Assembly (NCBI GenBank): GCA_023667845.1
Contig: JAMPIU010000005.1
Coordinates: 1 to 61,101 of the forward strand
Source: Dehalobacter sp.
GTDB lineage: Bacteria > Bacillota > Desulfitobacteriia > Desulfitobacteriales > Syntrophobotulaceae
DNA length: 61,101 nucleotides
Direction: 5' to 3'
The position numbers and the translations under genes were made by a program. This document shows, one piece after another, positions 23,177-45,127 of this stretch (position 1 is the stretch's first letter; each line of letters begins with the position of its first letter). The notes under the pieces are model-generated. The model saw only the letters and a program-made list of their open reading frames with translations. It did not search any database and was not told the origin of the DNA.

Positions 23177-23758
23177 TTGTTTATCGCAAAGAAGAAAATT
23201 GTTAAGACCATAACAATTATTTTTTTATTATTTATGATCCTGGCTGTATACCAGTCAAACTTTGTCGGCAGAATGATGTATCCTTTTCCATACAAACAGA
23301 CCGTTGAGAAATATGCCGCCCAGTATGGTACGGATCCTTTGCTGGTGATTGCTGTAATCAGGGAGGAGAGCAGGTTCATCACCAAATCGAAATCATCCAA
23401 AGGGGCGGTCGGATTGATGCAGCTGATGCCAGCGACAGCTAAAGAGGTAGCTGTCTGGCTGAAAGAGGATTACGCGAAGGCTGATTTACTTGATCCGGAA
23501 ACCAATATTCGTTACGGCACCTGGTATCTTGCTTCTTTGAGCAAAGAGTTTTCCGGCAATACAGTTCTTACCCTGGCGGCTTATAACGCCGGGATCGGCA
23601 GGGTGCAAAGCTGGCTGGATGATTGGCCGAAGGATCCGAATGCGTACCGTATTGAGGAAATTCCAATTACAGAGACCAGGGAATATGTCGAGAAAGTTTA
23701 CAAAAGTTATGAAAAATACTTGGCCCTTTATGCTACTCAACATTCTGGAGGGCATTAG
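23177..23758 (+). CDS. Membrane-anchored lytic transglycosylase (SLT domain)
   Basis: A 193-residue protein (TTG 23177) with an N-terminal membrane anchor (about residues 9-26, VKTITIIFLLFMILAVYQ). A goose-type/SLT catalytic domain follows: the catalytic glutamate is in IREESRFITKSKSSKGAVGLMQLMP (abridged) and AAYNAGIGRVQSWL is the conserved C-terminal motif. It cleaves peptidoglycan glycan strands at the outer face of the membrane. It follows coaE as does the YjbJ/MltE-like gene in other Clostridia. Confidence 0.93.
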   Translation: MFIAKKKIVKTITIIFLLFMILAVYQSNFVGRMMYPFPYKQTVEKYAAQYGTDPLLVIAVIREESRFITKSKSSKGAVGLMQLMPATAKEVAVWLKEDYAKADLLDPETNIRYGTWYLASLSKEFSGNTVLTLAAYNAGIGRVQSWLDDWPKDPNAYRIEEIPITETREYVEKVYKSYEKYLALYATQHSGGH

Positions 23759-23882
23759 GGTGCATGGTGGAAACCATAGTTATCGGTCCCCCGTTACGTC
23801 CCCAGTTCGACTCCTCGGTTCAATCGGGGACTGCGTTTACGCTCTATTATCTTTCATGATGTTTATCGATATACGGATAATT

Positions 23883-23927
23883 AAAACGCTGATAGTTGTA
23901 TCGAAGTGATAAGACTGCCAGCGTTTA
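23883..23927 (-). terminator. Decayed copy of the MFS terminator
   Basis: AAAACGCTGATAG / CTGCCAGCGTTT repeats the hairpin at 30853-30896 with one arm change that weakens pairing. It stands downstream of the MFS pseudogene on the minus strand. Confidence 0.5.
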
Positions 23928-24041
23928 TTGCATAGATCCTCTGTGAAACTCATTCAAGCAATTCCACGGATTTTTTAGGACCTTTTTTAAAACTAATTCT
24001 TGACATAGGAAGCACTTTAACTACCGTAGAATAGCAAATTA

Positions 24042-24402
24042 TTATTTCTCGAACTTGATCATGGGCTTGAAGACAAAGAATATGCCACAAATGACCATAA
24101 AGATTGCGTAGAGCAGGATAGGGAAGTTTGCCGAAAACGGTGCAAAGAGCGATGCCAAAGTAATTCGTGAAGAACATGGCCAAATTGTTACCTAAGATCA
24201 TAAAACCGTTGGCCATAGGCATTTTGCTGGTGGGCGCCGTTATGCTGACCCCCAGCTACATTTAGGACATGATCGCGCCCCGCCAAGTCCCGCAATAAAA
24301 GACGCGGCTTCCATTATTAACACGGTCTCAGGCATGATCAGGCCAAAGATGAAGGGAATTATGGCGATCAGGTGGACCAGCCACAAATATTTAATACCTA
24401 TA
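24042..24402 (-). pseudogene. Pseudogene of the MFS transporter (copy of the 31012-32196 gene)
   Basis: The C-terminal coding end is nearly identical to the intact gene at 31012-32196, but 14 bases are missing (after GGGAAG at 24121-24126), breaking the frame. One base is lost near 24272. About 330 bases are missing at CACGGTCT/CAGGCATG (near 24330). The N-terminal part is absent after AATACCTAT at 24393-24401. A 90-codon open stretch inside is only the surviving C-terminal piece. No product is expected. Confidence 0.8.
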
Positions 24403-24429
24403 AGATCAACTGGATGGTTTTACATTTTG

Positions 24430-24590
24430 GGTTGATTGTAACATTATTTGATTATTGAGGAAAATGTAAATTGCACCGCAATTTTATGCCATATAAAATT
24501 AAATTGTAAACAGGTTCACGGCTTGAATGACCTGTCCAGCTAAGATCAGCAATCAGGATTACCGAGACGTATAAAACGTGTCAACAAATT
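24430..24590 (+). repeat. Decayed copy of the OYE-gene promoter region and start
   Basis: TTATTTGATTAT, ATGTAAATTGC and ATATAAAAT blocks occur in the same order and spacing as at 34343-34400. GAGACGTATAA matches 34481-34491, and TATAAAACGTGTCAACAAAT matches the ribosome-site/start region of the OYE gene at 34680-34699. The two matched parts are joined at a shared GTATAA, so about 190 bases present at 34.5-34.7 kb were lost here. Confidence 0.75.
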
Positions 24591-24687
24591 TATTGGGTTT
24601 GTTGCTATTCCTATCATACCATTTTTGGCGGTTTTCTTGCTGTTTAAGCCTCTCTCCTATAGGTTTATTCCTTTAAATAAAGGATGA
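24589..24687 (+). pseudogene. C-terminal fragment of a membrane transporter
   Basis: Read from 24589, the frame gives FIGFVAIPIIPFLAVFLLFK and then PLSYRFIPLNKG before TGA. This is one hydrophobic helix with a KPL tail, typical of the last helix of a major-facilitator protein. It has no start of its own and is joined to the copied OYE start in another frame. Confidence 0.5.
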
Positions 24688-24737
24688 TGGGAAAGTTGAA
24701 TGATTTATGATGATTTATTTAAAAGAGGGAGGATTTT

Positions 24738-25574
24738 ATGAATATTAATCCACAAAATGACGATGAACTTCTGGAATACTATGCGTTTGTGCTGTCAAAT
24801 CTTAAAGATATGGTTGATGAAGACTTACAGGTCATCGTGACAAACACAAAAACTGGTCTTTATTACTTCCCCGGGAACAAAATGTCGACTGATGCCAATT
24901 TAATCGTCGGTGTAGAAAATGCACACGAATATAAAGCGATGCAGTCTGGAAAAATATTAAAGTATACGGTAGGCAAAGAACTTTTTGGTTTCCCTTTTAC
25001 GGGCATCGAATTTCCGATTAGAAATTTGAAGGGGGAAATCATTGGTTGTGTTGGTATCGGAAAAAGCTTAGAAACAGATTACAAGATTGAAGAAATATCC
25101 AATGGCCTGGCGGCAACCCTTGAACAGGTCAATGCAGGGGTTGAGGAGGTCGCTTCAGGATCCCAGGGACTTTCAGATAAGATTAACTATGTAATTTCAT
25201 CAGCAAATGAAGCCCAAAACCGAATTCAGGAAATTAATAAAGTCATTGGCGCTATCACAGATATTGCTTCCCATTCGAATCTATTGGGACTAAATGCGGC
25301 CATCGAAGCGGCCCGGGCTGGCGAGCAAGGCAGGGGGTTTGCGGTCGTCGCTGATGAAATGCGGAAGCTAGCTGTGCAAAGCAAAGATTCGGCCAAAATG
25401 GTGACGGATATTCTAAATGGAATGAAGCAATCGATCGAATCGATAATCAATGAAATCAATCAAGTCGGCAATATCGCTGAAAATCAGGCGGCTGCCACAG
25501 AAGAGATTACGTCTTCGATCATGGAAGTCAGCCAAACATCACAGTCATTGTTAAGCTTAACTAAGATTTATTAG
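24738..25574 (+). CDS. Soluble methyl-accepting chemotaxis protein
   Basis: ATG 24738 follows GAGGGAGGA. The 278-residue protein has no membrane segment. Residues about 1-118 form a small sensor domain ([31 protein letters not shown]). The rest is a short chemoreceptor signalling hairpin with the conserved tip region [20 protein letters not shown] (residues 183-202) and [12 protein letters not shown]. The Cys in GCVG could be a ligand site. It should signal to CheA/CheW from the cytoplasm. It is one of the short soluble receptors common in Desulfitobacterium-like genomes; it ends only about 55 residues after the tip, which is on the short side. Confidence 0.88.
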
Positions 25575-25682
25575 GAAACAAGGTGAGAACCACAGCAATT
25601 GCTTTTTATTTAAGAAATAACTTTTTCCCAGTTGGCTCCCGAAAAGCCCTCATCAGCCATGAGAAAAAATGGATAGAAATAT

Positions 25683-25705
25683 CATGTGAATCTGCGTTTC
25701 ACATG
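25683..25705. repeat. Short inverted repeat upstream of gerA
   Basis: CATGTGAA (25683-25690) and TTCACATG (25698-25705) are perfect 8-bp arms with a 7-base spacer, about 95 bases before the gerA start. It could be an operator or a weak terminator of the chemoreceptor transcript. The rest of the 224-base spacer shows nothing clear. Confidence 0.4.
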
Positions 25706-25798
25706 TCTCCTGTAATCGCATTATGATACGATCAATAATAAATTGAAATTTGGGTTATTCTAAATATAAGAATTCTGCTTTATTGAGGAATAAAAGCG

Positions 25799-27394
25799 AT
25801 GCCTTTTTCAAAAATAACCAGCAAGATTAAGAATAAAGGTCAGAGTTTAAATAAATTTGTAAAACAACACCCTTCCCAAAAGCAAACAAGGTTGCTGACT
25901 TCTTCCATGGAGAAAAATCTGTCATTAATTGCTGAGCTGTTAAAAGCTGATACAGATATGGTAATTGGCCGGGTTAACATAACGGGGAATGAAAAATTAG
26001 GAATTGTCTACATTCGTGGGATGACGGATAAAGATGCACTGAATAAGTACGTTATTGAGCCTTTGATGAATGGCCCAAACAAGTTTGAAAAGCTTAATGA
26101 AACGCCATCAATTAATAGGATAAGATTCATTCAGGGGTTATTGAAGACGGTAGACGTCAAGGAAACAAAACAAATGGAAGCGGTAATTACCGCTGTGTTG
26201 TATGGCAATGTTTGCTTGTTTATTGACGGGACGGATTCAGCTCTGGTTGTGGGTAATATAAAATTTGATAAACGTTCAATTGAAAATCCAGAGACGGATA
26301 CGGTGATACGGGGAAGCCGAGAAGGATTTATTGAAGATATTTCAACCAATGTAAGCATGGTACGACGGAGGCTGTGCAGTCCCACTCTTCGTTTTGAAAC
26401 TTTTTTTTTAGGAAAAATATCGCGCACCGAGATACGTTTGTCATGGATTGAAGGGATAGCGAACCCCAAAATTATTGAGGAAGTCCGTACCCGCATTCAA
26501 AGAATCGATATCGATTATATTTACGGAAGTGGCCTGATTGCCGAATTGATCGAAGATAATCCTTCCTCTCTCTGGCCCCAGGTCCATATGTCCGAACGGC
26601 CTGATGTCGTGGCTGCAAACTTAGCAGAAGGGCGTTTTGCCATTTTCTGCAACGGGTTTCCGTATATCATCATAGCCCCGCTATTATTCTGGCAAAACTT
26701 ACAAACGCCCGATGATTATGCGGATAAACCACTGATAGGAAGCTTTTTTCGTCTGCTTCGGCATATGGCCTTTTACATTTCCCTTATGATGTCCCCAATT
26801 TTTGTAGCCCTTGTTTCCTTTCATCCGACAATTATTCCTCAGCTTCTGGCATTTAAAATAGCTGCCGGACGGGAAGGCGTCCCTGTTCCTAGTATTTTTG
26901 AAGCTTTAATGCTCACGCTGATGATTGATTTGCTGCGGGAAGCCGGAGCACGGTTGCCCAAGCCTATCGGGGTGGCGGTCGCTGTTCTGGGAGCGGTAAT
27001 CATTGGCCAGGCAGCAGTTGCCGCCGGATTCGTCAGCCCGACCGTAATCATCATTGTAGCAATAGCAGCGATAGCAAACTTTAGTATCCCATCTCTAGAA
27101 TTAGCAAATGCCACCAGGATAGCAAACTATTTGCTGATCATACTTGGAGGGATTTTCGGGCTTTTAGGGGTCACGATAGGGATGGCTTGGCTGCTGTGGA
27201 CCGTTATTTCTTTACGATCTTTTGGGATTCCACTTTTTTATCCCCTAGCTCCGGGCGAGAACTATGGACTAAAGGATATTTTTTTCCGCGCGCCCGTCTG
27301 GCAATTGCGTAAGCGTCCCAGTTTACTGGCACAAGATAATATAAAAAAAATGGGAGCAGGTACGGTCAAGCCAAAACCGAAAGATAGAGGATAG
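25799..27394 (+). CDS. gerA: Spore germination protein, GerA family A subunit
   Basis: A 531-residue protein. The N-terminal cytosolic part (about 1-280) holds the GerA signature (LIAELLKADTDMVIGRV; NPETDTVIRGSREGFIEDI; RTEIRLSWIEGIANP). It is followed by the membrane part with about five helices (about 285-480; PTIIPQLLAFKIAAGREGVP). It forms the membrane receptor with GerB and GerC in the spore inner membrane that senses germinants and likely conducts ions. It is the first gene of a three-gene operon, seven bases ahead of gerB. Expression would be forespore-specific; I see no certain sigma-G box. The germinant is unknown. Confidence 0.93.
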   Translation: MPFSKITSKIKNKGQSLNKFVKQHPSQKQTRLLTSSMEKNLSLIAELLKADTDMVIGRVNITGNEKLGIVYIRGMTDKDALNKYVIEPLMNGPNKFEKLNETPSINRIRFIQGLLKTVDVKETKQMEAVITAVLYGNVCLFIDGTDSALVVGNIKFDKRSIENPETDTVIRGSREGFIEDISTNVSMVRRRLCSPTLRFETFFLGKISRTEIRLSWIEGIANPKIIEEVRTRIQRIDIDYIYGSGLIAELIEDNPSSLWPQVHMSERPDVVAANLAEGRFAIFCNGFPYIIIAPLLFWQNLQTPDDYADKPLIGSFFRLLRHMAFYISLMMSPIFVALVSFHPTIIPQLLAFKIAAGREGVPVPSIFEALMLTLMIDLLREAGARLPKPIGVAVAVLGAVIIGQAAVAAGFVSPTVIIIVAIAAIANFSIPSLELANATRIANYLLIILGGIFGLLGVTIGMAWLLWTVISLRSFGIPLFYPLAPGENYGLKDIFFRAPVWQLRKRPSLLAQDNIKKMGAGTVKPKPKDRG

Positions 27395-27401
27395 TATATA
27401 T

Positions 27402-28508
27402 ATGATTGAAAACCAAAAAATTTCTGGGCGACAGTTAGCTGTTTTATTGATATTAAATATAGGCTGCCTTGTAAGTTTCGCATGGAATACGATAATCGGC
27501 GTTTCCGGGCGGGCAGCCGGGGTAGCCGTTTCGGCAGGCATGATAGTGTTATTGCCATTAACACTGTGGTCATTGTGGCTGGGCAATTCACTTCTGGGGC
27601 ACACAATCTTGGAAATCCTGGAGATCAATGCAGGAAAGATCATTGGGAAAATGATTGAAATTGTATACATAATACTCTCTATTGCTGCTTCATCTTTGAT
27701 GCTTCGGAGCTTAAGCGGGTTACTTCAAATATTTATCCTGCCTGATACACCTATTTTAGTTTTAAGCCTGCTGATTCTTGTACTGCCTGTTCTTATGGCG
27801 CGAGACGGAATTGAAGGTCTTGGCCGGATGTCTGAAATAATTTGGCTTGTTGTCATGGTCATATATATTCCCGGGATAGGCTTTGCACTTATTGGGCAAC
27901 TGAATTTGGAGCTTTTTACGCCCATCTTTGATCGGGGCCTAAAAGCATTGGCCGAAGGCACATACCTTAGTGCCGCCTATTTCTCGATTTTTATTTTATT
28001 CCTCTTTGTGATAACCGCTGCGCTTCCCCGTCCCGCCGATCATTACCGCTTCATGTTCAAAGCTTTACTTGTATTCACGCCTTTAATGGCAACAGAAGTA
28101 GTATTACCTGCTATCGGAACTTTTGGCGCTGAACAAGCAGGAAGTCTATCGGAAATAGGTTTAAGTGTAGCCAAGTCTGCTTCTCTTGGACGATTCATTC
28201 AGGGTTTGGATATATTTATTGTAGTTGCATACATTTTAGTCACGATGATGAACATTGGAATGTGTATGTACTGTGGATGGACAGCCTCAATCAGAATTTT
28301 TAATAATTGGAAGCCTAATTTATGGCTGATCGTAAATACTTGTTTGATATTGTTTTTATCTATTAGCATTCATTCATTTAATGAATCCGTATTATTATCG
28401 GAACTTTTAAGCATCTATGGAATTTTCCCGTTTGCTTTCTTTGTTCTCCTGTTGGCAACCGCCAGCCTTTTGCTTAGGGGTAAAAAGCGGGCAGGTGTAA
28501 AGAAATGA
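27402..28508 (+). CDS. gerB: Spore germination protein, GerB family (APC-type) subunit
   Basis: A 368-residue polytopic protein with about ten membrane helices, opening ISGRQLAVLLILNIGC and containing the family patterns GVSGRAAGVAVSAGM and ARDGIEGLGRM. It is the amino-acid/polyamine/cation-type transporter-like subunit that binds germinant in the membrane. The stop overlaps the start of gerC (ATGA). Confidence 0.92.
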   Translation: MIENQKISGRQLAVLLILNIGCLVSFAWNTIIGVSGRAAGVAVSAGMIVLLPLTLWSLWLGNSLLGHTILEILEINAGKIIGKMIEIVYIILSIAASSLMLRSLSGLLQIFILPDTPILVLSLLILVLPVLMARDGIEGLGRMSEIIWLVVMVIYIPGIGFALIGQLNLELFTPIFDRGLKALAEGTYLSAAYFSIFILFLFVITAALPRPADHYRFMFKALLVFTPLMATEVVLPAIGTFGAEQAGSLSEIGLSVAKSASLGRFIQGLDIFIVVAYILVTMMNIGMCMYCGWTASIRIFNNWKPNLWLIVNTCLILFLSISIHSFNESVLLSELLSIYGIFPFAFFVLLLATASLLLRGKKRAGVKK

Positions 28509-29758
28509 GGAAAGTCTTCTTATTACTATTGTCTGTAATCATGCTGATGCTGTCAGGATGCGGGGGAGCCAAAGAATTGGAGGAATATAGTTTTATCACC
28601 TCCGTGGGCATTGACAGTGGGCCCGGTGACGGTGAAATGACGCTGACGGTCGAGAGTGCCATCCCTCAATCCCGGTCTGCAGGCGGAAATAGTGGGAAGG
28701 CAGACGGGAGTGAGAGCCAAATAGGAAGCGGCGTCATTTATCAGGCCAGCGAAGTAACCTTGTCGGCAGCGCTAAGCCGGCTGCAGGAGATAACGGAGCA
28801 TGAGATTTTTCTTGGGTATGTGGGATCGGTCGTTATCGGTGAAGAAGCCGCCAGGAAGGATATGGACCGGATACTGGATTTTTTGAAGGGTAACCTGGAA
28901 TTACGGCGTTCTGCTTATATATTCATCAGCAAAGATCGTGCAGAGAATGTTTTATCCATCATTGTACCTCGGAAATCTTTAATTGGAGTAACAATCAGTT
29001 CAATGGCAAGAGATACTGAAGAAACGGGATTTTCCTTTGCCACAAGAATTGGAGACAGCCTTTTCTTACCCCTGTTCAGCACCGGAGTCCAGCCGCTTAT
29101 TGCTGCTGTTAAAGCTTCGGATTTACCGGAACAGGCGGCTGGTTCGCCGGAAAAGACTGGAACACAGGGAGTTGTGAAGCAAAAACCCGGTTATTTAAGT
29201 CTCCCTGGAATGGCTGTCTTTAATGGGACAACGCTTGTAGGCTGGCTGAATGAAAAAGAAAGCAGGGGCTGGGGATGGATCCGTGGGAAAGTAAAGCGTG
29301 GTTATATTGTAAGAATCACTCCCCGCAGCGATACAGGTAAGTTAAGTCCGGTTACTTTTCATCTCTTGGACGGAAAATCATCAATTAAATATACGATTGA
29401 TAATAATACAGTGTCAGCGCATATCGACATTAAAGTTAAGGGCGAAGTCAGAGAATGGGCCGAGAGTATAAATGTAATTGACACGGATATCATCCGCAGC
29501 TTGGAGAAGGACCTGGCAGTTGAGATAAAATCCGAGGTCCAGGCGGCTCTGGAGAAGGGGCAGCGAGAATTGAAATCCGATATTTTCGGTTTCGGTTTCG
29601 AACTGTTTAGGCAAAACTACCGTGCGTATAACCAAAATTTCCGTGATAAATGGCCTGTATTCTTTCCTGATATGCCTATTGACGTGAAGGTAGAAGCGAG
29701 TATTCAAAACACAGGCACGTTCATGCGGGCCTTAGAAATTAGAACTATACGCAAATAA
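28505..29758 (+). CDS. gerC: Spore germination lipoprotein, GerC family subunit
   Basis: A 417-residue lipoprotein. The signal peptide MRKVFLLLLSVIMLMLSGC ends in a lipobox with the lipidated cysteine at residue 19. EYSFITSVGID is the family opening of domain 1. A Ser/Gly-rich stretch (about 55-80) and a Pro/Gly-rich insert (about 205-222) are loops. The C-terminal GerC domain includes NFRDKWPVFFPDMPIDVKVE. It completes the GerABC receptor, facing the cortex. The gene overlaps gerB by four bases. Confidence 0.93.
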   Translation: MRKVFLLLLSVIMLMLSGCGGAKELEEYSFITSVGIDSGPGDGEMTLTVESAIPQSRSAGGNSGKADGSESQIGSGVIYQASEVTLSAALSRLQEITEHEIFLGYVGSVVIGEEAARKDMDRILDFLKGNLELRRSAYIFISKDRAENVLSIIVPRKSLIGVTISSMARDTEETGFSFATRIGDSLFLPLFSTGVQPLIAAVKASDLPEQAAGSPEKTGTQGVVKQKPGYLSLPGMAVFNGTTLVGWLNEKESRGWGWIRGKVKRGYIVRITPRSDTGKLSPVTFHLLDGKSSIKYTIDNNTVSAHIDIKVKGEVREWAESINVIDTDIIRSLEKDLAVEIKSEVQAALEKGQRELKSDIFGFGFELFRQNYRAYNQNFRDKWPVFFPDMPIDVKVEASIQNTGTFMRALEIRTIRK

Positions 29759-29759
29759 T

Positions 29760-29838
29760 ACTCAAATGTATTCTTACTCTTTTTCATTGCCTCTAATATT
29801 TCTATTTTTTGGGCTTCGCTAAATTGATATTTCGGCAT
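29760..29838 (-). pseudogene. Transposase N-terminal remnant
   Basis: The minus-strand ATG at 29838 follows GAAAGGTGCTGATATT. It encodes MPKYQFSEAQKIEILEAMKK, then KSKNTFE, the opening helix of a transposase-like HTH (pattern M.KY.F.E.QK.EI). The frame then runs into the end of gerC and stops. Only the first third of an HTH remains. Confidence 0.5.
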
Positions 29839-29963
29839 AATATCAGCACCTTTCTTACTAATATTTTACCATTGATATCTAAATATTTTTCATATACTAT
29901 ACGCAGATTAGTATTATTTACATCTTGTGGCAGACATCAAAATCTATAGAAAGAGGCGATCAT

Positions 29964-30503
29964 ATGTGTATTGGAACAAAAAAGGCACTGACCGATGCGT
30001 TTTTGGAACTATGTGAAACTATGTCTATTACGAAGATCACCGTACAGGACATCGTCGATCACTGTGGTGCCAGCAGGCAGACATTTTACAATCATTTCCA
30101 TGATAAGTTTGAGCTGATAGAGTGGGTCTATCTCCGCAATTTTGACGATCCCCTCATGGAGTTCCAGGACTATGACCGGTGGGCGAGAAAATCAAGTAGG
30201 CTTATAAGTAAAAACAGGCATTTTTATCTCCAGGCTTACAAAACGACAGACTTCATGGAATGGCTTGAAAAATGGATTTATGAAAATATGCGTAACTTTA
30301 TAAGCGTCAAATTCGGCCCCCAGGAATTGACAGCGAATGTCTTGTATACTCTGGAATCGTATGTACGCGGAGCCTTTCGGATCTTTCAAAAACAGCTGTT
30401 GTCCAGCGCATACGCACCCATTGAAGAAAGTACTGTTAGAGACTTAAAAAATATGCCCGCCATACTGCGGAAATATTTTCCTTCCAGTGGGAACCCGACC
30501 TGA
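29964..30503 (+). CDS. TetR-family transcriptional regulator
   Basis: A 179-residue protein from ATG 29964 (MCIGTKKALTDAFLELCE), behind AGAAAGAGGCG. The N-terminal HTH (about residues 6-50) reads ITKITVQDIVDHCGASRQTF then YNHFHDKFELI, the TetR recognition helix. The C-terminal helical part resembles the TetR_C_7 / DhaS-like group with a YLRNF...FMEWLEKWIYENM pattern. It sits at the left edge of the accessory island, ahead of the MFS/OYE genes, and is a candidate regulator of them. The operator is unknown. Confidence 0.85.
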   Translation: MCIGTKKALTDAFLELCETMSITKITVQDIVDHCGASRQTFYNHFHDKFELIEWVYLRNFDDPLMEFQDYDRWARKSSRLISKNRHFYLQAYKTTDFMEWLEKWIYENMRNFISVKFGPQELTANVLYTLESYVRGAFRIFQKQLLSSAYAPIEESTVRDLKNMPAILRKYFPSSGNPT

Positions 30504-30589
30504 TCTGCACAAATGCAAAATGGGTAAACTGATCCCTGTGTCAAGGACAATTAAAAAAAGGGCTTGATTTCTCTTTTGTATATGAGGAA

Positions 30590-30819
30590 TTGAAAGTTAA
30601 CTATTGTCTAGATAAGGCAGAAATGCGATCGATCCAATTCGGATGTTCAAATACTTACTCATGGGCTGATGATATTGTAATTCTGGTGAATCCTCACTCA
30701 TCAAAGGAATGGATAGTAAATCGTGCGCATCAAAGGTTGACGGAAGGGCTAAACCGACTACAGGTAGCACAAAATACGGAAAAGACCAAGACAGTCTGCA
30801 AAGCCTTCTCACTGATAGC
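30590..30819 (+). pseudogene. Group II intron-type reverse transcriptase fragment
   Basis: The readable stretch contains TYSWADDIVILVNPHSSKEW and LTEGLNRLQVAQNTEKTKTV. These are the RT catalytic box (YADD changed to WADD) and the following L..N..KTK motif of group II intron-encoded reverse transcriptases. The upstream fingers and downstream maturase domains are missing, and the frame passes into the repeat shared with 23.8 kb. It is a dead relic. Confidence 0.65.
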
Positions 30820-30852
30820 TTTCATGATGTTTATCAATATACGGATATATTA

Positions 30853-30896
30853 AAACGCTGGTAGTTGTATCGAAGTGATAAGACTGCCAGCGTTTA
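30853..30896 (-). terminator. Rho-independent terminator of the 31012-32196 MFS gene
   Basis: Read on the minus strand: a 12-bp stem (one G-U pair) with arms at 30885-30896 and 30853-30864, followed by a TTTTAAT tail. It lies about 115 bases beyond the MFS stop. A decayed copy exists at 23883-23927. Confidence 0.65.
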
Positions 30897-31011
30897 TTGC
30901 ATAGTTCCTCTGTGAAACTCATTCAAGCAATTCCACGGATTTTAATAGGACCTTTTTCAAAACTAATTCTTGACATAGGGAACACTTTAACTGCCGTAGA
31001 ATAGTAAATTA

Positions 31012-32196
31012 TTATTTCTCGAACTTGATCATGGGCTTAAAGACAAAGAATATGCCACAAATGACCATAAAGATTGCGTAGAGCAGGATAGGGAAGCGCA
31101 GGTCGCCGACTTTGCCGAAAACGGTGCAAAGAGCAATGCCAAAGTAATTCGCGAAGAACATGGCCAAATTGTTACCTAAGACCATAAAACCGTTGGCCTG
31201 TGGTATCTTGCTGGCAGGCGCCGTTATGCTGACCCCCAGGTACATATAGGACATGATCGCGGCCCAGCCAAGTCCCGCAATAAAAGACGCGGCTTCCATC
31301 ATTAACACGGTCTTAGAGAAGAAGAATAAAAACAAACCTGCAGAATTAACCAATGCCGATAAAGGAAAAGTCATTCTTTTAGCATTCTTCATAAGAAAGC
31401 TAAAGACAAAACCGCCGATAAAGCCGCCGGCGTTCCACATGGAGAATATTGTCCCGACCTGCACGGCGGTGCCAATACCCTCGTTGGCGACGATGGATGA
31501 AAGATTAAGGAAGTAGGGATAGCAAAACGCCATCATAATTGAAAAGGCGATAATGAAGAACCAGGTTAAACCGGGAATCTTTCTTTGGACGTCGACTCCT
31601 TTCGCTTCCCTTTCGGCAGGAGTGTCTTTGAGCTCTGGCTCAGGCATGATCAGGCCAAAGATGAAGGGAATTATGGCGATCAGATGGACCAGCCACAAAT
31701 ATTTAATACCTATGGTAACCAACAGGCCACCAATCAGCGAGAAAAGCATAGCGCCTAAATTTAGGAAGGCGTTGCCCCCGCCAATGATTCTGCCTCTCAC
31801 GGTTTCATCTTTAAAGTATGCGGAGGCCAGAGATACGCCCATGGGAACACTTAGGCCGAAGCCAAGTCCCACCACCATGCGGCAAATCAAAATAGCCCAA
31901 AAGTTCGTAAGGAAGAACGGAATAAGGCCCCCGAGAAGAAATAAAACAAGGCCGATCAGATTCGTGACCTTAAAGCCAAGCTTTTTTACGATCGTCCCGA
32001 ATAACATATTGGTGGGAAGACAGGTCAGGCTGACTATGGTGGAGAGCAGTACGACGGTGGTGAAGGGATATTGCGGATACTGTGTCGAAAGCTTGGCTAT
32101 GCCTACGGTAACGCCGTTCGGGGCTCCCGCGACAAGATAAACTACCAATACAGCCATAGTAAGGAATAACGAGTTTCTTTTTACTGATGAGTCCAT
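31012..32196 (-). CDS. MFS transporter
   Basis: A 394-residue, 12-helix major-facilitator protein. ATG 32196 follows AAAAGGAGATTTATAA. The N-terminal half has the A-motif-like NMLFGTIVKKLGFKVTN (loop 2-3), and MPEPELKDTPAEREAKGVDV (about 197-216) is the central cytoplasmic loop. The KFEK tail is basic. It is clearly paralogous to the 390-residue carrier encoded upstream at 32490-33662 and shares the STQYPQYPFTTVVLLSTIVS region. It is likely an importer or exporter of the organic acid used by the nearby flavoenzymes; the substrate is unknown. A broken copy is at 24.0-24.4 kb. Confidence 0.92.
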   Translation of the reverse strand: MDSSVKRNSLFLTMAVLVVYLVAGAPNGVTVGIAKLSTQYPQYPFTTVVLLSTIVSLTCLPTNMLFGTIVKKLGFKVTNLIGLVLFLLGGLIPFFLTNFWAILICRMVVGLGFGLSVPMGVSLASAYFKDETVRGRIIGGGNAFLNLGAMLFSLIGGLLVTIGIKYLWLVHLIAIIPFIFGLIMPEPELKDTPAEREAKGVDVQRKIPGLTWFFIIAFSIMMAFCYPYFLNLSSIVANEGIGTAVQVGTIFSMWNAGGFIGGFVFSFLMKNAKRMTFPLSALVNSAGLFLFFFSKTVLMMEAASFIAGLGWAAIMSYMYLGVSITAPASKIPQANGFMVLGNNLAMFFANYFGIALCTVFGKVGDLRFPILLYAIFMVICGIFFVFKPMIKFEK

Positions 32197-32390
32197 TTAT
32201 AAATCTCCTTTTCCGTATTTAACTATTTATATAAGGGTATTAGGGTGAGGCATTCAGCAAGCTGCCAAAAAAACTTACTACTATTCTCCACCATTCGTTT
32301 TCCTCCAGCATGGGCTCCGCCCTGATCGGTACAAATGTGAGAGGAGTAATCTGATTTCTGTAGTTTAAATAATATTGAAAAAAATAATTT

Positions 32391-32433
32391 AACGCCCAAA
32401 AACTACTGTTACCATGGTTCTTGGGCGTTTTTC
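32391..32433. terminator. Bidirectional intrinsic terminator between the two MFS genes
   Basis: AACGCCCAA (32391-32399) and TTGGGCGTT (32421-32429) form a perfect 9-bp stem with a 21-base loop. A T-run follows on the plus strand, and AAATTATTTTTTT follows on the minus strand. It lies about 60 bases past the stop of the 32490-33662 gene and gives that gene its own transcript end. Further left (32329-32370) is a 40-base imperfect match to 30499-30540. Confidence 0.7.
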
Positions 32434-32489
32434 CATAATTAATAGCGCCAGGATTTTTTAAATTCTTGGTTCAACCCCATGTGGCGGGT

Positions 32490-33662
32490 TTATTTGGATT
32501 CCACCAGCTTAAGAGGATTGACCAAGAGGACTATTGCCAGTACCGCAACGACGACCACGCATACTACGATAGGAAAACGTATATTACCAGACTGGCCAAA
32601 GAACGTGGAAATAGCAGTACTGCAGTAGGGTGCAACGAACTGACCCAGACCACTGCCAGCAACAATCAGTCCCATGGCCGTAGCGGTTTTGCTTGGCGGC
32701 GCTGAGATAGCGATACCTGTGTACATATAAGCCACCATGAGAACCCAGCCGATACCGGCGATCACAGTCATAATATCAAGCATCAAAATACTTTTGGCGT
32801 ATGCAAAAAGGAACATTGAAGGGCAAAAGATTATTGCCGCGACACAGATGAGCCTATTAGGAACTGCCTTGAAAAGAAAACCGAAAATTAAGCCGGCAAG
32901 AACCGCGCCGACAGTAAACAAAGAGCCCATCAGACCGGAATCAACCGGAGTGCCGCCTACGGCGATAACAACGGAAGACATATTGAGAAAGTAAGGATAC
33001 ATGAATATCATCAAAACCGTATAGCAGATAATAAAAAACCAGGACTTACCTATTTTCTCATTTGATTTTTCCGCAACGGCGGATTCAGTTTTTTCAGTCT
33101 TCGGTTCGGGCATAACCAGCGCAAAAATGAAAGGAATCACCATAATAAGGTTAACCAGCCAAACATACTTAATACCAATGGCGACCAAAACGCCGGCGAT
33201 CATGGCAAAAGCTATGCCGCTGGCAGCCATGACAGTGTTGCCCCAGCCAATGACTCTAGCCTTTTGAACATCGTCCCGAAAATATGCGCTTGTCAGCGCG
33301 GCCCCCATCGGGAAGACCATGCCATAGCCGAGAGCCAGCAACACACGAAACGCCAGGATAACAGGGAAACTCGTAAGGAAGAAGGGAGCGAGGCCGCCCA
33401 CCAGAACCAAGATAATACCGATTAAACTGGTGACCTTAAAGCCCAGCTTATTTACAATCGCTCCAAACAGCAGATTCGTTGGAATGGAGCACAGACTGAC
33501 AAGCGTGGATACCAGCATGATTGTGTTTACGCTGTACTGAGGATATTCCGCCATTAGATACCCAAGAGCCGGATTGATGCCGTTCAGGAAACCCTGGATA
33601 GTGAAAGCGGACAGTGCAATTACGGCCAGGAACATGAAACTATTTTGTTTTGAGTTTTCCAT
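32490..33662 (-). CDS. MFS transporter, paralogue
   Basis: A 390-residue, 12-helix major-facilitator protein; ATG 33662 follows AAAAGGAGAATAAAA. Motif A-like NLLFGAIVNKLGFKVTS, central loop MPEPKTEKTESAVAEKSNEK (residues about 199-218). It shares length, loop pattern and the AEYPQYSVNTIMLVSTLVS segment with the downstream MFS protein, so the pair arose by duplication. It is divergent to the OYE gene at 34687 across a 1-kb regulatory region, which suggests shared control and a substrate linked to that enzyme. Confidence 0.92.
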   Translation of the reverse strand: MENSKQNSFMFLAVIALSAFTIQGFLNGINPALGYLMAEYPQYSVNTIMLVSTLVSLCSIPTNLLFGAIVNKLGFKVTSLIGIILVLVGGLAPFFLTSFPVILAFRVLLALGYGMVFPMGAALTSAYFRDDVQKARVIGWGNTVMAASGIAFAMIAGVLVAIGIKYVWLVNLIMVIPFIFALVMPEPKTEKTESAVAEKSNEKIGKSWFFIICYTVLMIFMYPYFLNMSSVVIAVGGTPVDSGLMGSLFTVGAVLAGLIFGFLFKAVPNRLICVAAIIFCPSMFLFAYAKSILMLDIMTVIAGIGWVLMVAYMYTGIAISAPPSKTATAMGLIVAGSGLGQFVAPYCSTAISTFFGQSGNIRFPIVVCVVVVAVLAIVLLVNPLKLVESK

Positions 33663-34686
33663 TTTTATTCTCCTTTTTTCGGACTTGATTTACTTCGTCT
33701 TGATGCACGGAGCTGCCGCAGTATAATCAGATCCCGAAGCTCCGCGGAAGGGATGGGAGAGAACATCTCCGCGTGGTTGGAAAACACTTTGCGGCAATTA
33801 ATTATGTTTTAATGTAATACTGCTGAATAATTCTGAATTGCTTGTAAACACAAGACTACGGACGCCCCTCTTCAGCGGCCGCCAAGACGCTCACGTTGAC
33901 GCAGTCGGTTACATCGACGAAGAGAATAACTTCATATAACCTCCTTTCTTTTTTTTGCGCACGTGATATTTGCCTCAACTTCATCTTACTGAATAAATGA
34001 TAAAAGACAATTTACAGAATAAAATATTTGCCTAGCTATTATACAATTTAAAAATAATGTATAGAATTAGATAATTGTGAATAATGTAAATTGCGAATAA
34101 TATAAATAATATAGATGATAAGTAAAAAATAATGTAAAAAATGTAGACAATAAAATCAAAGAGTGAAATTCAGCTCAGAAAAATCGACAGAAGAAGCGCT
34201 GATGTTAGTTCAGTTTTTCTATGTATTTTACAGGTGAAGTCCACAGGTGAAGTCCTTTTCCTGCGCAAATGCGGTTTCGACCGGAAAATAACTAACCTAA
34301 AGTTTAAACTAAAGTAATTTTACATTTAAAAAAAGATGTAAAATTATTTGATTATAATCCAAAAATGTAAATTGCGCCTCAATTTTTTTCTATATAAAAT
34401 CAGACTGTAGACAAGTTCGCAATTTATCTGCCGGTTTCTAACGGTACAGGGGTGTTTGGGGTTAAGTGTTTCGCCAGATTCGAGACGTATAACTGTAGTG
34501 CCTAAATCAATTTTTGCGCGAACTTATTTTTATCAAGTTCCAATTGCACAAATATCGCTTGTTTTAACTATGTGAAGTTGGGAACTTATAGGGGCGAGCA
34601 TAATTTACCAACACTTAAACCGGTTGATTTGACTGGATGATGAAGACTTCTGAAAATCTACAAAATAGTAACAGGAGGTATAAAAC
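33663..34686. other. 1-kb divergent regulatory region (MFS / OYE)
   Basis: No intact gene. On the minus strand a strong ribosome site and ATG near 33930 open only eight codons (MKLFSSSM). A +1-shifted frame continues EVILFVDVTDCVNVSVLAAA before a stop, so this may be a decayed short gene. A direct repeat CAGGTGAAGTCC occurs twice at 34231-34254. The stretch 34020-34160 is very AT-rich with repeated AATAATGTA. The likely OYE control site is listed separately. Confidence 0.5.
34371..34398 (+). promoter_or_regulatory. Candidate operator and -10 for the OYE gene
   Basis: ATTGCGCCTCAAT (imperfect palindrome, 34371-34383) lies about ten bases upstream of a TATAAA (34393-34398). The decayed copy at 24470-24497 has the better palindrome ATTGCACCGCAAT and the same TATAAA, so the arrangement was preserved through the duplication. 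Related ATTGC elements recur at 34090, 34544 and 38960-38986. The factor is unknown; the TetR protein at 29964 is one candidate. Confidence 0.4.
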
Positions 34687-36633
34687 GTGTCAACAAATTA
34701 CCAAAAGCTTTTTGAACGGACTTCAATAGGAAAAGTAAAGCTGCGCAACCGTATTGCTACGCCGCCTATGGGCACTATGGCGGAAGAACCGACTGGAGTG
34801 CTGAGCGATTCGCAAATCAATTATTATGAAGCCCGGGCTAAAGGCGGAATAGGATTGGTTATAGTTGAGGGCCAATTTGTTACCAACAAAACAGATCCGG
34901 GGCTAGTTCATCAAACTTTGGTTGATACCCAATTTCAAATGAAGAAATGGTCCTTTTTGGCGGATAAGATACATGCCCATGGCGCTAAAATGGGTATCCA
35001 ACTGATGTGCGGCATCGGCAGATGCGCGTTCGTTCCGGAAAACGGTCCGGTTCCGGTAGCGCCGTCGGCTATTCCGACGCCTTATAATCCGAACATTATC
35101 TGCCGTCCTTTGACTGTGGAGGAAATCCGCGAAGTCGTGGAAAGTCATGGACGTTGTGCCGCCCGCGCCGTCAATGCCGGATGTGATATCCTCGAAATTA
35201 ACGCGCATAACGGTTTTCTGCTTGACCAGTTTATGACGCCGTTATGGAATCACAGAACGGATGAGTACGGGGGAAGTTTTGAAAACCGAATGCGGATTAT
35301 TGCGGAAATTTATCATTCCATGCGCAAGGCCGTAGGTCCGGATGTTCCGATTGTTGCAAGAATAGGAGTCTGGCACGATGTCGAAGGCGCGCGCAGCATG
35401 GATGAAGGTATTGAGATATGCAAATATCTGGAAGGCCTTGGCTTTGACGCGCTTGATATCGACCTGGGCGCTCCCGATAACCCTATATGGGGGCAGCCTC
35501 CCGGTTACGCGGGAGATGGATGCATGGCTTTTGCCTCCGAGGCGGTTAAAAAAACGGTAAAGATTCCGGTGATGAACACCGGCTCCTATACACCACAAAG
35601 CGCGGTAGAAGCTGTGGAAAAAGGAAAAACCGACATCGTCCTGCTTGGACGGGCCTCGATTGCCGATCCTGACTGGGCCAATAAGCTCATAAGCGGCTGT
35701 GAGGAGGATATTCGTCCCTGCCTGTTGTGTAACCAGTATTGTATAGGAAGGGTCTATAAAGGTCTGACGGTCACTTGTTCTGTGAATCCACAGGCTGGCG
35801 GCGAACGTGATTATATCATTGCCAAGACGGAAGAACCCAAAAATGTAGCGGTAATAGGCGGGGGCCCCGGAGGCATGGAGGCGGCAAGGGTCGCCGCGTT
35901 AAAGGGGCACCGGGTCACGCTGTTTGAAAAAAGCGACAGACTTGGCGGTCAGCTTGATGTTGCTTCCAAGCCTCCCTTCAAGGGGCGCCTGAAAGCTTAT
36001 CTGAACTGGCAGAAATTGCAGTTACAAAAGAACGGGGTGAGCGTCGTCTATAATAAAGCGATAATGCCGGATTCGCCGGAGCTTGCCGGGGCTGATCGGA
36101 TTATTGTTGCTGTCGGCGCCGTTCCCTTCACCCCGCCGATCAAAGGTATTGATCTTCCCAATGTCATCGAAGTGACGGATGCCCACCGGGAGCCTGACCG
36201 AATCAAAGGAGACCGTATTGTCGTCGTGGGCGGCGGGCTTTCAGGGTGTGAGTGCGCTTTGGAACTGGCCATGCAAGGCAGGGACGTGACGCTTGTCGAA
36301 ATGCTTCCTGCAATCGCTCAGAAGGAGTTTGTTCTGGAAATTAAGATTCCACTGCTCAATGAATTGAAAAAATACAGCGTAAAGCAGATGGTCGGCACGA
36401 AAGTTCTGGAATTCAAACCCCAGAGTGTGGTCGCGCAGAACGAATCCGGGACGCTGGAGCTTCCGGCCGATACCGTAATCTTTGCTCTCGGTATGAAGTC
36501 GGAAGGTGAATTGTGCGATGCGATCTGTGATAAATATCCTTCCGCAGTGGCTGTCGGCGACTGCAACGCGGGCGAAGGACAGATCGGCGACACGGTGCGG
36601 GAAGGTTTTTTTGCGGGCTGGTCTGTTGATTAA
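34687..36633 (+). CDS. OYE / 2,4-dienoyl-CoA reductase-like Fe-S flavoenzyme
   Basis: A 648-residue protein from GTG 34687, behind ACAGGAGG. The N-terminal FMN TIM barrel (about 1-340) shows LFERTSIGKVKLRNRI, the active-site region INAHNGFLLDQFMTPLWNHR, and DEYGGSFENRMRI. The 4Fe-4S site is complete: C345-x2-C348-x3-C352-x11-C364. The C-terminal FAD/NAD half (about 380-648) has VIGGGPGGMEAARVAALKG and VVGGGLSGCECALELAMQG. This three-cofactor design matches 2,4-dienoyl-CoA reductase, trimethylamine dehydrogenase and bai-type enoate reductases. It probably reduces or oxidises a C=C bond conjugated to a carbonyl. Substrate unknown. It is followed by a 300-base gap. Confidence 0.9.
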   Translation: MSTNYQKLFERTSIGKVKLRNRIATPPMGTMAEEPTGVLSDSQINYYEARAKGGIGLVIVEGQFVTNKTDPGLVHQTLVDTQFQMKKWSFLADKIHAHGAKMGIQLMCGIGRCAFVPENGPVPVAPSAIPTPYNPNIICRPLTVEEIREVVESHGRCAARAVNAGCDILEINAHNGFLLDQFMTPLWNHRTDEYGGSFENRMRIIAEIYHSMRKAVGPDVPIVARIGVWHDVEGARSMDEGIEICKYLEGLGFDALDIDLGAPDNPIWGQPPGYAGDGCMAFASEAVKKTVKIPVMNTGSYTPQSAVEAVEKGKTDIVLLGRASIADPDWANKLISGCEEDIRPCLLCNQYCIGRVYKGLTVTCSVNPQAGGERDYIIAKTEEPKNVAVIGGGPGGMEAARVAALKGHRVTLFEKSDRLGGQLDVASKPPFKGRLKAYLNWQKLQLQKNGVSVVYNKAIMPDSPELAGADRIIVAVGAVPFTPPIKGIDLPNVIEVTDAHREPDRIKGDRIVVVGGGLSGCECALELAMQGRDVTLVEMLPAIAQKEFVLEIKIPLLNELKKYSVKQMVGTKVLEFKPQSVVAQNESGTLELPADTVIFALGMKSEGELCDAICDKYPSAVAVGDCNAGEGQIGDTVREGFFAGWSVD

Positions 36634-36931
36634 GCGAAAATACGTAATTTAGAACGTTAAAAGCAATGATATTGGAAGTAGCCATAATTGAGATAAATTC
36701 AAACAATGATTTTGGACGAATAGAGGTATAGAAAGGAGGATTATATATATAAGGAAAGAGTCGATAAAATATCGATGAAGGTTATAAAATATTTTAATAT
36801 AAATAGAATGCTGCAGCCTTGAATTCGTCCGTAAATCGTCGTTCATTTTGCCACTCATATCAGAAGGGGTAAAACAGGGTTTGCTACTTCGGTGCCAATA
36901 TAAAGCGGTAAATAAGAAAGGGGTGCTAATT

Positions 36932-37411
36932 ATGAATAGTCAAGAAGAAAGAAATACTAAGTGTGCGCGTGAAATAGTCCGTATACTTGAGCGGGGCGAC
37001 GGGAAGGCTTTTGCTAATTATCTATCGGAGGATTGCGTCGTGACGATCATAGGCGACCTTGTGTTTTCGAGGACGCTTAAGACAGGGAAAGACTTGCTTG
37101 CCGCTTTTTCAGGAGTGGGCGGGGAAACCCTGGACTGGAAGTACAATATTTATAACACTACGGCCCAGGATGACCGTGTAGCCGTCGAGGTTGAGACCTT
37201 AGTCCGTATGCCGTCCGGAAAGCTTTACAACTGCAGGTATCATTTCCTCTGGACATTCCGCGACGGCAAGGCGGTTGACTGGAAAGAATATGCAGATACG
37301 GAAATGGTCACGTGGGGCCTGTTGGACGGCGTCAAACCATGGCCGCCGATAAGCGACGAAGAGCGCATCGCGGCGTTCGAAGCGCGGAGAAAACAATTCC
37401 CGCAGGACTGA
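36932..37411 (+). CDS. SnoaL-like / NTF2-fold protein, copy 1
   Basis: A 159-residue protein from ATG 36932, with AAAGGGG at 36918-36924 as ribosome site. The pattern REIVRILERGDGKAFANYLS, then EDCVVTIIGD, and the YNCRYHFLWTFRDGKAVDWK region (residues about 104-123) fit the cone-shaped alpha+beta barrel of SnoaL, ketosteroid isomerase and the bile-acid dehydratase BaiE. These act as isomerases, dehydratases or cyclases on ring ketones and polyketides. I cannot pick out a definite catalytic pair. It lies between the two OYE genes. It differs from copy 2 only at residue 136 (Val here, Arg in copy 2). An upstream in-frame extension is unsupported. Confidence 0.8.
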   Translation: MNSQEERNTKCAREIVRILERGDGKAFANYLSEDCVVTIIGDLVFSRTLKTGKDLLAAFSGVGGETLDWKYNIYNTTAQDDRVAVEVETLVRMPSGKLYNCRYHFLWTFRDGKAVDWKEYADTEMVTWGLLDGVKPWPPISDEERIAAFEARRKQFPQD

Positions 37412-37470
37412 GCGGACAGTGGAAGAGAACCAAAGTTTACTAAGCGGTAAATAAGAAAGGGGTGCTAATT

Positions 37471-37950
37471 ATGAATAGTCAAGAAGAAAGAAATACTAAG
37501 TGTGCGCGTGAAATAGTCCGTATACTTGAGCGGGGCGACGGGAAGGCTTTTGCTAATTATCTATCGGAGGATTGCGTCGTGACGATCATAGGCGACCTTG
37601 TGTTTTCGAGGACGCTTAAGACAGGGAAAGACTTGCTTGCCGCTTTTTCAGGAGTGGGCGGGGAAACCCTGGACTGGAAGTACAATATTTATAACACTAC
37701 GGCCCAGGATGACCGTGTAGCCGTCGAGGTTGAGACCTTAGTCCGTATGCCGTCCGGAAAGCTTTACAACTGCAGGTATCATTTCCTCTGGACATTCCGC
37801 GACGGCAAGGCGGTTGACTGGAAAGAATATGCAGATACGGAAATGGTCACGTGGGGCCTGTTGGATGGCCGCAAACCATGGCCTCCGATAAGCGACGAAG
37901 AGCGCATCGCGGCGTTCGAAGCGCGGAGAAAACAATTCCCGCAGGACTGA
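37471..37950 (+). CDS. SnoaL-like / NTF2-fold protein, copy 2
   Basis: A 159-residue near-identical paralogue of copy 1, with the same ribosome site, and Arg at residue 136 in LLDGRKPWPPI. The surrounding bases also changed (GGCGTC to GGCCGC, and one silent change each side), suggesting point divergence after the tandem duplication. GTG 37462 lies in frame just upstream, but AAAGGGG favours ATG 37471. Two copies may raise dosage or provide a heterodimer. Function as for copy 1, inferred from fold and context only. Confidence 0.8.
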   Translation: MNSQEERNTKCAREIVRILERGDGKAFANYLSEDCVVTIIGDLVFSRTLKTGKDLLAAFSGVGGETLDWKYNIYNTTAQDDRVAVEVETLVRMPSGKLYNCRYHFLWTFRDGKAVDWKEYADTEMVTWGLLDGRKPWPPISDEERIAAFEARRKQFPQD

Positions 37951-38005
37951 GCGGACAGTGGAAGAATACCGAAGTTTACTAAATTAATTGAAGTGAGGGA
38001 AAATA

Positions 38006-38701
38006 ATGAGTAAGGAAAATAATCCCAACTGCACTATTAAGCACATGGTTCTGTTGAAGTGGAAGCCGGGAACCACAGAAGAGCAAGCTAAGGCCTTTGG
38101 CGAGTGGATCCGTGAGCTGGCTGATGATATTGGCTTTGTCTTTGACTTAGAGCACGGACCAAGTTTAGAACCTCGCTATCATAGCGCCTATTTTGATTAC
38201 TGCATTATGCTGAGCCTTGGCGGCGGATATGAAGCGATGAGTGCATACATGTCGCATTGGTCTCACTTACGCGCCGACGCACGGATGGCTTCCGTATGCG
38301 GTATTATTGAACAGGTTATGGCGTTCAACTTTGAAGTTAACCCGTATGGGCGCACCGAATATGATCCTGTTTTAGCGAGAGAGGACATCGAGCGGGAGAG
38401 AGAACGCGTCCAGCGCGTGCATCCCAATAAGGATATGGCTTATGTACCTGATTTGCGTGGACGTTTTGTTGAAGATGCCATTCCTATGCTTGAAGCAGCC
38501 GGGATTACCCTTGACTCTGAACGGATGATACTTATGGGCAGTTCCTGGGCTCCTGGGCGGATCAACGCTACCGAACCGGAAGCTCAAAAAGAAGTGCCAA
38601 AAGGAACCAAGGTGAAATTAACTGTAAGTGGTGATTATTTGATGGGTGTTGATGTTCCGTATGTGATAGGCGATCGTCCTCTTTCACCAGTCAAGTATTA
38701 A
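38006..38701 (+). CDS. Dabb-domain protein with C-terminal PASTA domain
   Basis: A 231-residue protein; ATG 38006 follows GTGAGGG. Residues about 9-112 form a Dabb (stress-responsive dimeric alpha-beta barrel) domain: IKHMVLLKWKPGTTEEQAKA and later YMSHWSHLRADARMASVCGI. After a charged linker (about 118-145, REDIERERERVQRVH), residues about 147-210 match a PASTA domain: VPDLRGRFVEDAIPMLEAAG and KEVPKGTKVKLTVSG. There is no signal peptide or membrane segment, so the PASTA unit is cytosolic, which is unusual; PASTA normally binds cell-wall precursors outside the cell. Dabb proteins include polyketide cyclases such as olivetolic acid cyclase. The role is likely tied to the OYE/SnoaL genes. Confidence 0.8.
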   Translation: MSKENNPNCTIKHMVLLKWKPGTTEEQAKAFGEWIRELADDIGFVFDLEHGPSLEPRYHSAYFDYCIMLSLGGGYEAMSAYMSHWSHLRADARMASVCGIIEQVMAFNFEVNPYGRTEYDPVLAREDIERERERVQRVHPNKDMAYVPDLRGRFVEDAIPMLEAAGITLDSERMILMGSSWAPGRINATEPEAQKEVPKGTKVKLTVSGDYLMGVDVPYVIGDRPLSPVKY

Positions 38702-38775
38702 CCGTTCATTACTATGTGGTAGGCGCAGACCATCATCATCCGGGCGATTGCGATGATAGCCTTTTTATGGCGAAA
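38698..38775 (-). pseudogene. IS110-family transposase C-terminal remnant
   Basis: On the minus strand the frame reads FRHKKAIIAIARMMMVCAYH then IVMNG and a stop. This is the conserved last helix of IS110/IS116/IS902 transposases (GHKKAIIAIARMML..YHML). Nothing further upstream is readable. Its stop codon overlaps the stop of the Dabb-PASTA gene, so the insertion boundary touches that gene's 3' end. Confidence 0.6.
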
Positions 38776-38840
38776 AGCCTATAAAGGGATCTATTATCTT
38801 GCAGGCGTAGACGTGTCTTAATACCGGGAGAAGAACGAAT

Positions 38841-38885
38841 TGCTTTCCCCGAGCGTTATGAGGCGTTCCACGCTCGGGGAAAGCA
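38841..38885. repeat. Perfect 16-bp inverted repeat
   Basis: TGCTTTCCCCGAGCGT (38841-38856) and ACGCTCGGGGAAAGCA (38870-38885) are exact reverse complements around 13 bases. GC-rich with no T-tract. It lies about 65 bases from the IS110 remnant and could be a mobile-element relic or an RNA hairpin. Confidence 0.65.
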
Positions 38886-38959
38886 AGAGCCGTAATGAAT
38901 GGACGTTGACTGGTGCTGAGTTGTGCACTTGCGAAGTAAGAATTCATTTCTAGTGTTTA

Positions 38960-38986
38960 ATTGCACTAATGGTCGATTGCATTAAT
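38960..38986. promoter_or_regulatory. Paired ATTGCA(C/T)TAAT direct repeat
   Basis: ATTGCACTAAT (38960-38970) and ATTGCATTAAT (38976-38986) are 16 bases apart, upstream of the second OYE gene. They share ATTGC with the candidate operator of the first OYE gene. A regulator site is possible. Confidence 0.35.
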
Positions 38987-39057
38987 AATAGTAATTATTG
39001 AGTGGTTCTCCATACATGGCACAATGTAATCAACAATTGAAAAGGCGGTTATGAACT

Positions 39058-39192
39058 GTGCCAAGGAAAATAATAGTTGTTAGTCACAGCGAACCCGATA
39101 TTCTTAAACTTTGCCTTGTTAAGCAAGGGAGTAGGTTACAATCGGAGAAGATACTAGGTGATATCCAGCAGCCCATTCGGCTAGGAGCATGA
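39058..39192 (+). CDS. Possible short ORF, response-regulator-like start (doubtful)
   Basis: GTG 39058 with AAAGGCGG upstream opens 44 codons starting MPRKIIVVSHSEPDILKLCL. This resembles the first beta strand and helix of a receiver domain (KIIVVDDEPDILKL), but the phospho-acceptor acidic pair is changed to SHSEPD, and the frame ends before the rest of the domain. It may be a decayed receiver gene or chance. The 600-base gap 38702-39308 otherwise holds only the items listed. Confidence 0.3.
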   Translation: MPRKIIVVSHSEPDILKLCLVKQGSRLQSEKILGDIQQPIRLGA

Positions 39193-39308
39193 CTGACGTT
39201 TGATCTCTTGGAATGGTAGGACGAAGGAACTTCGGGCTATGACCTAGGAACGCTGTGAAGACAACGGAACAATGAAGTAATGACTAATCAATCAAGGGAG
39301 GATAACAC

Positions 39309-41270: not shown

Positions 41271-41300
41271 TTTGTCTTAGAGACTCTTCAATAGAATTAG

Positions 41301-41330
41301 GGAGGCGGCTTTTGGAGTCGCCTCCGTTTT
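41301..41330 (+). terminator. Intrinsic terminator or attenuator between OYE and etfA
   Basis: GGAGGCGGC (41301-41309) pairs with GTCGCCTCC (41317-41325, one G-U), followed by GTTTTA. It lies 50 bases before the etfA start and could limit read-through into the ETF unit. Confidence 0.6.
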
Positions 41331-41380
41331 ATAAGACCATTAAGCTAAATGGAAATTTCAGGATAGGAGGCAGAATAGCA

Positions 41381-42379: not shown

Positions 42380-42381
42380 AG

Positions 42382-43943: not shown

Positions 43944-43971
43944 GAAGAATAAAAAAATAAGGAGAAAGTAT

Positions 43972-45094: not shown

Positions 45095-45127
45095 GGACGC
45101 CGCAAAACTTCGCGGCGTCCCCTTATC
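45095..45127. terminator. Bidirectional terminator between etfB and thrB
   Basis: GGACGCCGC (45095-45103) and GCGGCGTCC (45112-45120) form a perfect 9-bp stem. The T-runs are modest on both sides (CCTTATCGTTTT on plus, CTTTCT on minus). It separates convergent transcripts. Confidence 0.65.

Follow-up and report, generated by a model that had tools for sequence, protein, structure and literature searches.

The window, which is the whole stretch of DNA analyzed here (61,101 nucleotides, positions 1 to 61,101 of contig JAMPIU010000005.1), comes from Dehalobacter sp., a genus known for reductive dehalogenation. It contains an island with an intact segment of two MFS genes and one old yellow enzyme gene (MFS1, MFS2, and OYE1) and, 94 bases inside the island's left rim, a relic at 23848-24590. 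With order and orientation preserved, this relic corresponds to the MFS1 3' flank and the C-terminal half of that gene, and then to the OYE1 upstream region and initial codons. The features, in window positions, are as follows.

23754..45142, no strand: island of 21,389 bases, missing at this site in congeners (window compared by BLAST with the syntenic loci in genomes G002, G001, and G004; G003 by match coordinates; Pfam)
23754..23847, no strand: stretch of 94 bases between backbone and relic, with no homologue at E < 0.01 in five congeneric genomes and no Rfam match (23700-34700 searched, E up to 1)
23848..24041, minus strand: relic of the MFS1 3' flank, matching 30816-31011, with 10 of 194 aligned bases different
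24042..24326, minus strand: relic of the MFS1 C-terminal coding part, matching 31012-31311, with 14-base and 1-base gaps (alignment)
24327..24401, minus strand: relic of the MFS1 middle part, matching 31639-31713, past a 327-base loss
24402..24568, plus strand: relic of the OYE1 upstream region, matching about 34287-34486
24419-24470: dyad in the relic promoter, within the OYE1 upstream relic
24569..24589, plus strand: relic of the OYE1 start, GTATAAAAC, with the GTG start codon at 24578 plus three codons, matching 34678-34698
24590..~24700, minus strand: IS4-family end fragment, truncated at the OYE1 start and repeated in G001, where an intact copy encodes a transposase
30548..30663, plus strand: fragment of an IS1182-family transposase gene, spread over two frames and located upstream of the intact copy (tblastn with a G001 transposase)
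30665..30800, plus strand: probable but weak fragment of a reverse transcriptase from a group II intron (NCBIfam TIGR04416, E 2.5e-5, and Pfam RVT_1, E 0.014, both below cut-off)
31012..32196, minus strand: MFS1, the intact source-like copy (Pfam MFS_1, E 1.2e-31)
32490..33662, minus strand: MFS2, 43% identical to MFS1, which leaves no trace in the relic
34319..34371, no strand: dyad TTTACATTT-N34-AAAATGTAAA upstream of OYE1 (pattern search)
34687..36633, plus strand: OYE1, a flavin oxidoreductase of the BaiCD/bilirubin-reductase-like kind (Pfam Oxidored_FMN, E 2.6e-65; best NCBIfam matches below cut-off)
44872..44925, no strand: third dyad copy, following etfB and close to the right rim of the island (pattern search)

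BLAST comparison with congeneric genomes revealed that backbone synteny extends up to 23753 and resumes at 45143 or 45145, at 97% in G002, 92% in G001, and 91% in G004. Between these flanks the three genomes hold 1.77 kb, 0.29 kb, and 1.76 kb, respectively, and the flanks of G003 lie about 1.4 kb apart by coordinates. The block is thus absent between conserved flanks, as is characteristic of a genomic island, and its bounds are 23754-45142 rather than the 30-45 kb given in an earlier note on this DNA. The suggestion made there, that a 30-45 kb island was a separate second arrival, does not hold, since the insertion relative to the congeners is one block with the relic inside it. The GC content of the island (0.463) is close to that of its flanks (0.470 and 0.479), so a foreign base composition was not found. 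At the island site, G002 carries an open frame of 520 residues with, at best, weak similarity to a helix-turn-helix (E 0.067, under the cut-off), and G004 carries similar DNA. A shortened remnant of this G002/G004 gene was also observed at the island site of G001 (locus L087, reverse complement, 2762-3047).

According to Pfam, the 17 island ORFs scanned include, besides MFS1, MFS2, and OYE1, an MCP-like gene, a gerA-type operon, a TetR-like regulator (29925-30503), two SnoaL-like genes, Dabb/PASTA, OYE2, EtfA, a FixC-like gene, a ferredoxin-like gene, and EtfB. No intact recombinase, integrase, transposase, or conjugation gene was detected among them, and no repeat linking the two rims was found when the window was compared with itself. 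The gerA-type spore germination operon is full, with three genes at 25799-29758, and lies near the OYE and ETF genes. In addition, a tandem duplication of 541 bases (36903-37982) with the two SnoaL-like genes (36848-37411 and 37462-37950) differs at 7 of 541 bases and, judged by this sequence comparison, is far younger than the MFS/OYE duplication.

To characterize the relic, 23840-24740 was searched against the window's own genome (3,654,475 bases in 209 contigs). Four blocks were matched on the same contig, on the plus strand, and in the same order: 30816-31316 (91%, E 2.4e-204), 31639-31713 (99%, E 6e-31), 34337-34418 (79%, E 6e-12), and 34675-34699 (96%, E 8e-4). The sole match outside the contig, on contig C206, concerned only the right end of the query, and BLAST of 23001-25500 against the window recovered identical blocks. 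The promoter part of the relic reached a local alignment score of 47.5 against the OYE1 upstream region, compared with a best of 21.0 in 1,000 dinucleotide shuffles, or 22.0 when the start-codon block was omitted; since this score lies above all shuffles, the promoter part is colinear and not a chance match. Thus, the own-genome search, BLAST, and shuffles agree that the relic is colinear with the intact copy beyond chance, which bears out the earlier description of a decayed MFS/OYE duplicate in the same order, including the colinearity of its promoter parts. That description had called the segment a regulatory module, which fits the retained OYE upstream region, but most of the scar consists of MFS coding sequence and MFS 3' flank.

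The losses reported previously are real at base level, with 14 bases, 1 base, 327 bases (given as about 330), and 191 bases (given as about 190) missing from the relic; single-base gaps are visible in the alignment, one of them within the MFS coding part. The 191-base loss spans two GTATAA copies upstream of OYE1 (34487 and 34678), of which the relic keeps one, and it took the ribosome-binding AGGAGG. Two further junctions were not on the earlier list. The first is a jump of 2,623 bases (31714-34336) between the MFS and OYE blocks, covering the remainder of MFS1, MFS2 in its entirety, and some of the OYE1 upstream region; its joint has 35 bases without an exact match to either side, although a looser alignment extends the promoter similarity back across most of them. 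The second lies at 24590, where the sequence switches, after GTG and three codons, into the IS4-family end fragment. Collapse at short repeats had been proposed for the deletions in general. Raw counts of shared bases are 6 for the 191-base loss (GTATAA), 2 for the 327-base loss, and 0 for the 14-base loss, with no clean overlap at the 2,623-base jump; a clear repeat stands at one junction only.

The fragment at 24590-24700 carries the sequence of an IS4-family element's end as found in intact copies. Searching with 24590-24717 gave matches on C206 (82%), at five places in G001, and at one or two places each in G002, G003, G011, and G015. In G001 these places form the outer ends of an element with a transposase of the NCBIfam IS4 family NF049925 (E 1.6e-162). 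All G001 copies displayed terminate near GGGAAAGTTGAG, while the fragment beside the relic terminates with GGGAAAGTTGAA at about 24700. A search of the own genome at E 1e-10 detected no related transposase. Another truncated end of the same kind was observed on C206 (locus L004, 1501-1626), between other genes. A membrane-like frame had made 24590-24680 a candidate for the 3' end of rdhB, the reductive dehalogenase anchor gene; it was rejected, because in G001 this sequence is the upstream end of the IS4-family element with its transposase.

The MFS frame of the relic is broken by the 14- and 1-base gaps and by two codons of the ancestral frame that are now stops, and its N-terminal part is absent. 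Among 360 aligned coding bases there are 16 differences, comprising 6 synonymous and 8 non-synonymous changes and the 2 stops, which fall 5, 1, and 10 times at codon positions 1, 2, and 3 (120 each). Even divergence along the relic would be expected for one duplication, but the MFS part differs at 26 of 554 positions (4.7%) and the promoter core at about 16 of 82 (about 20%; p = 1.5e-5), which argues against the simplest history, a single duplication that then decayed neutrally. Given the uneven codon positions, the two copies may both have been functional while some of the divergence accumulated. Third positions differ at 10 of 120 (8.3%, a small count). For eight backbone genes (matches below 500 bits and reverse-strand matches left out), the own genome differs at third positions from G002 at 263 of 2,786 (9.4%), from G001 at 377 of 2,792 (13.5%), and from G004 at 315 of 2,778 (11.3%). 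Intergenic divergence from G002, G001, and G004 is 4.6%, 4.0%, and 6.3%, and the MFS flank of the relic differs by 5.2%. A third-position divergence like that between species indicates that the duplication is old; the relic thus provides a rough relative age, and on these sequence distances, with similar rates assumed, the duplication would date from roughly the time at which the nearest congener split off.

With its colinear blocks, its losses, its broken MFS frame, its OYE1-IS4 fusion, and its place at the left rim of the island, 23848-24590 is very probably all that is left of a second MFS1-OYE1 segment, now dead after duplication, loss of function, and several deletions. This agrees with the earlier proposal that such a segment once lay here and collapsed. 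The second copy would have arisen by segmental duplication, either in this lineage or in a donor before arrival; it would then have lost its function and contracted in several separate deletion events. In the final event, the OYE start would have become fused to an IS4 element previously inserted some distance beyond it. Since MFS2 has left no trace in the relic, the copy that was lost was not necessarily complete. The relic most likely has no present function.

We also considered whether two related but separate modules arrived apart, with the relic being the leftover of an earlier homologous MFS-OYE arrival and the intact copy a later one that entered the same site by recombination; both would have been functional for a while and would have diverged outside this genome. 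The uneven codon-position differences are also compatible with such arrivals, as only 1 of the 16 coding differences falls at second positions; the far more diverged promoter core, the third-position divergence close to the between-species value for G002, and the mobile-element scraps adjoining both copies point the same way. However, one island holds both copies, and no second source of the module was found: MFS1 matched in its own genome only among 398 genomes of the phylum (E 1e-80), and module DNA likewise among 82 genomes of the class, both collections being a sample of species. Separate arrivals are therefore possible, but we regard them as clearly the less probable explanation.

Further searches with the module gave a similar picture. 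At E 1e-30, MFS1 matched in 10 of 41 relatives, with at most 31% identity outside the own genome, and a search of genome contigs with MFS1 yielded 13 stretches but no relative. The plasmid collection contained no match to 30816-36633, and the whole-genome search proposed earlier for further MFS/OYE modules found no copy of the module DNA in the own genome beyond the intact one and the relic. OYE1 relatives are common, with 90 in genome contigs, and the best of the 80 kept (71% identical) belongs to Anaerosolibacter carboniphilus, where no MFS neighbor was seen in the stretch examined. No relative of MFS1 or MFS2 lay beside an OYE1 relative at E 1e-15 in the 17 of 80 loci tabulated. A literature search for Dehalobacter with old yellow enzyme led nowhere, as only a biocatalysis review turned up.

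The retained promoter part contains the dyad TTTACATTT-N33..35-AAAATGTAAA, which occurs in the window at 24419, 34319, and 44872, with 0 occurrences expected from 100 shuffles of the window. A slightly looser pattern (N30-38, one arm base fewer), used genome-wide, was detected at three places in the own genome, all in the island, and at none in 24 relatives; the reversed control pattern was absent from all 25 genomes. Half-sites AATGTAAA or GATGTAAA were also observed upstream of OYE1, at 34083, 34131, and 34335. The arms are exact in the relic, even though the intervening bases have changed. The dyads of the relic and OYE1 are homologous by descent, while the third copy is not demonstrably so. 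As a further collapsed OYE promoter the third dyad was rejected: 44857-45130 scored 12.0 against the OYE1 upstream region (shuffle mean, 11.5; reached by 200 of 500 shuffles) and 13.0 against the relic (shuffle mean, 9.6; 10 of 500), weak at best. The third dyad shows no similarity to the other two beyond its arms, a pattern that fits a binding site better than copied DNA.

A natural guess is that the dyad is a candidate operator for a regulator of the island, and the copy retained in the relic may still be bound by the factor, whatever it is, that recognizes the OYE1 promoter. That it would be the private operator of a regulatory circuit encoded by the island, with the relic still binding the regulator as a decoy or second control point, seems rather unlikely. 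The dyad nevertheless offers a testable handle on the control of the OYE/ETF gene set in this genus. It is improbable that the relic is a working regulatory locus, its conserved dyad serving as a regulator-binding decoy or driving the MCP-like gene at 24738-25574. The exact arms around altered bases would suit such a role, but promoter-like sites (4 found versus 3.0 expected) are not above shuffles, the ribosome-binding site is gone, and the IS end separates the dyad from the MCP-like gene. An assembly artefact is very improbable: the assembly is fragmented (209 contigs, contamination estimate of 3.73%), but the substitutions, the small gaps, and the junction with a different IS end do not resemble a misjoin, and both backbone flanks lie within one contig.

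Past mobile-element activity near both copies of the segment is likely, because IS4, IS1182, and, weakly, group II reverse transcriptase fragments adjoin them. The earlier statement that the scar points to a mobile or amplified island is supported to this extent, but the copies are old and single, and the 17 ORFs scanned include no intact recombinase; these findings separate an ordinary fossil from a claim of mobility. Compared with IS4-family elements (NF049925), 24590-24700 corresponds to the outer end of one, intact in G001 with its transposase, but at the relic the end alone is present. For Dehalobacter, transposases and a nested island are described in PMC11578063. Like the genomic islands of Dehalobacter-like organohalide-respiring bacteria (PMC11578063), the present island is a strain-specific block between core genes, and the own genome, like theirs, carries the reductive dehalogenase family PF13486 elsewhere (10 matches); it differs in that none of these 10 matches places an rdhA in the window and in that no recombinase occurs in the 17 ORFs scanned. 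Finally, the relic is an ordinary kind of genome fossil. As in bacterial partial pseudogenes formed by segmental duplication and deletion, it combines colinear pieces of neighboring genes, frame-breaking gaps, stops, and an IS scrap at its edge, and it differs from them in no way in kind; here the source-like copy lies 7-10 kb away within the same island.
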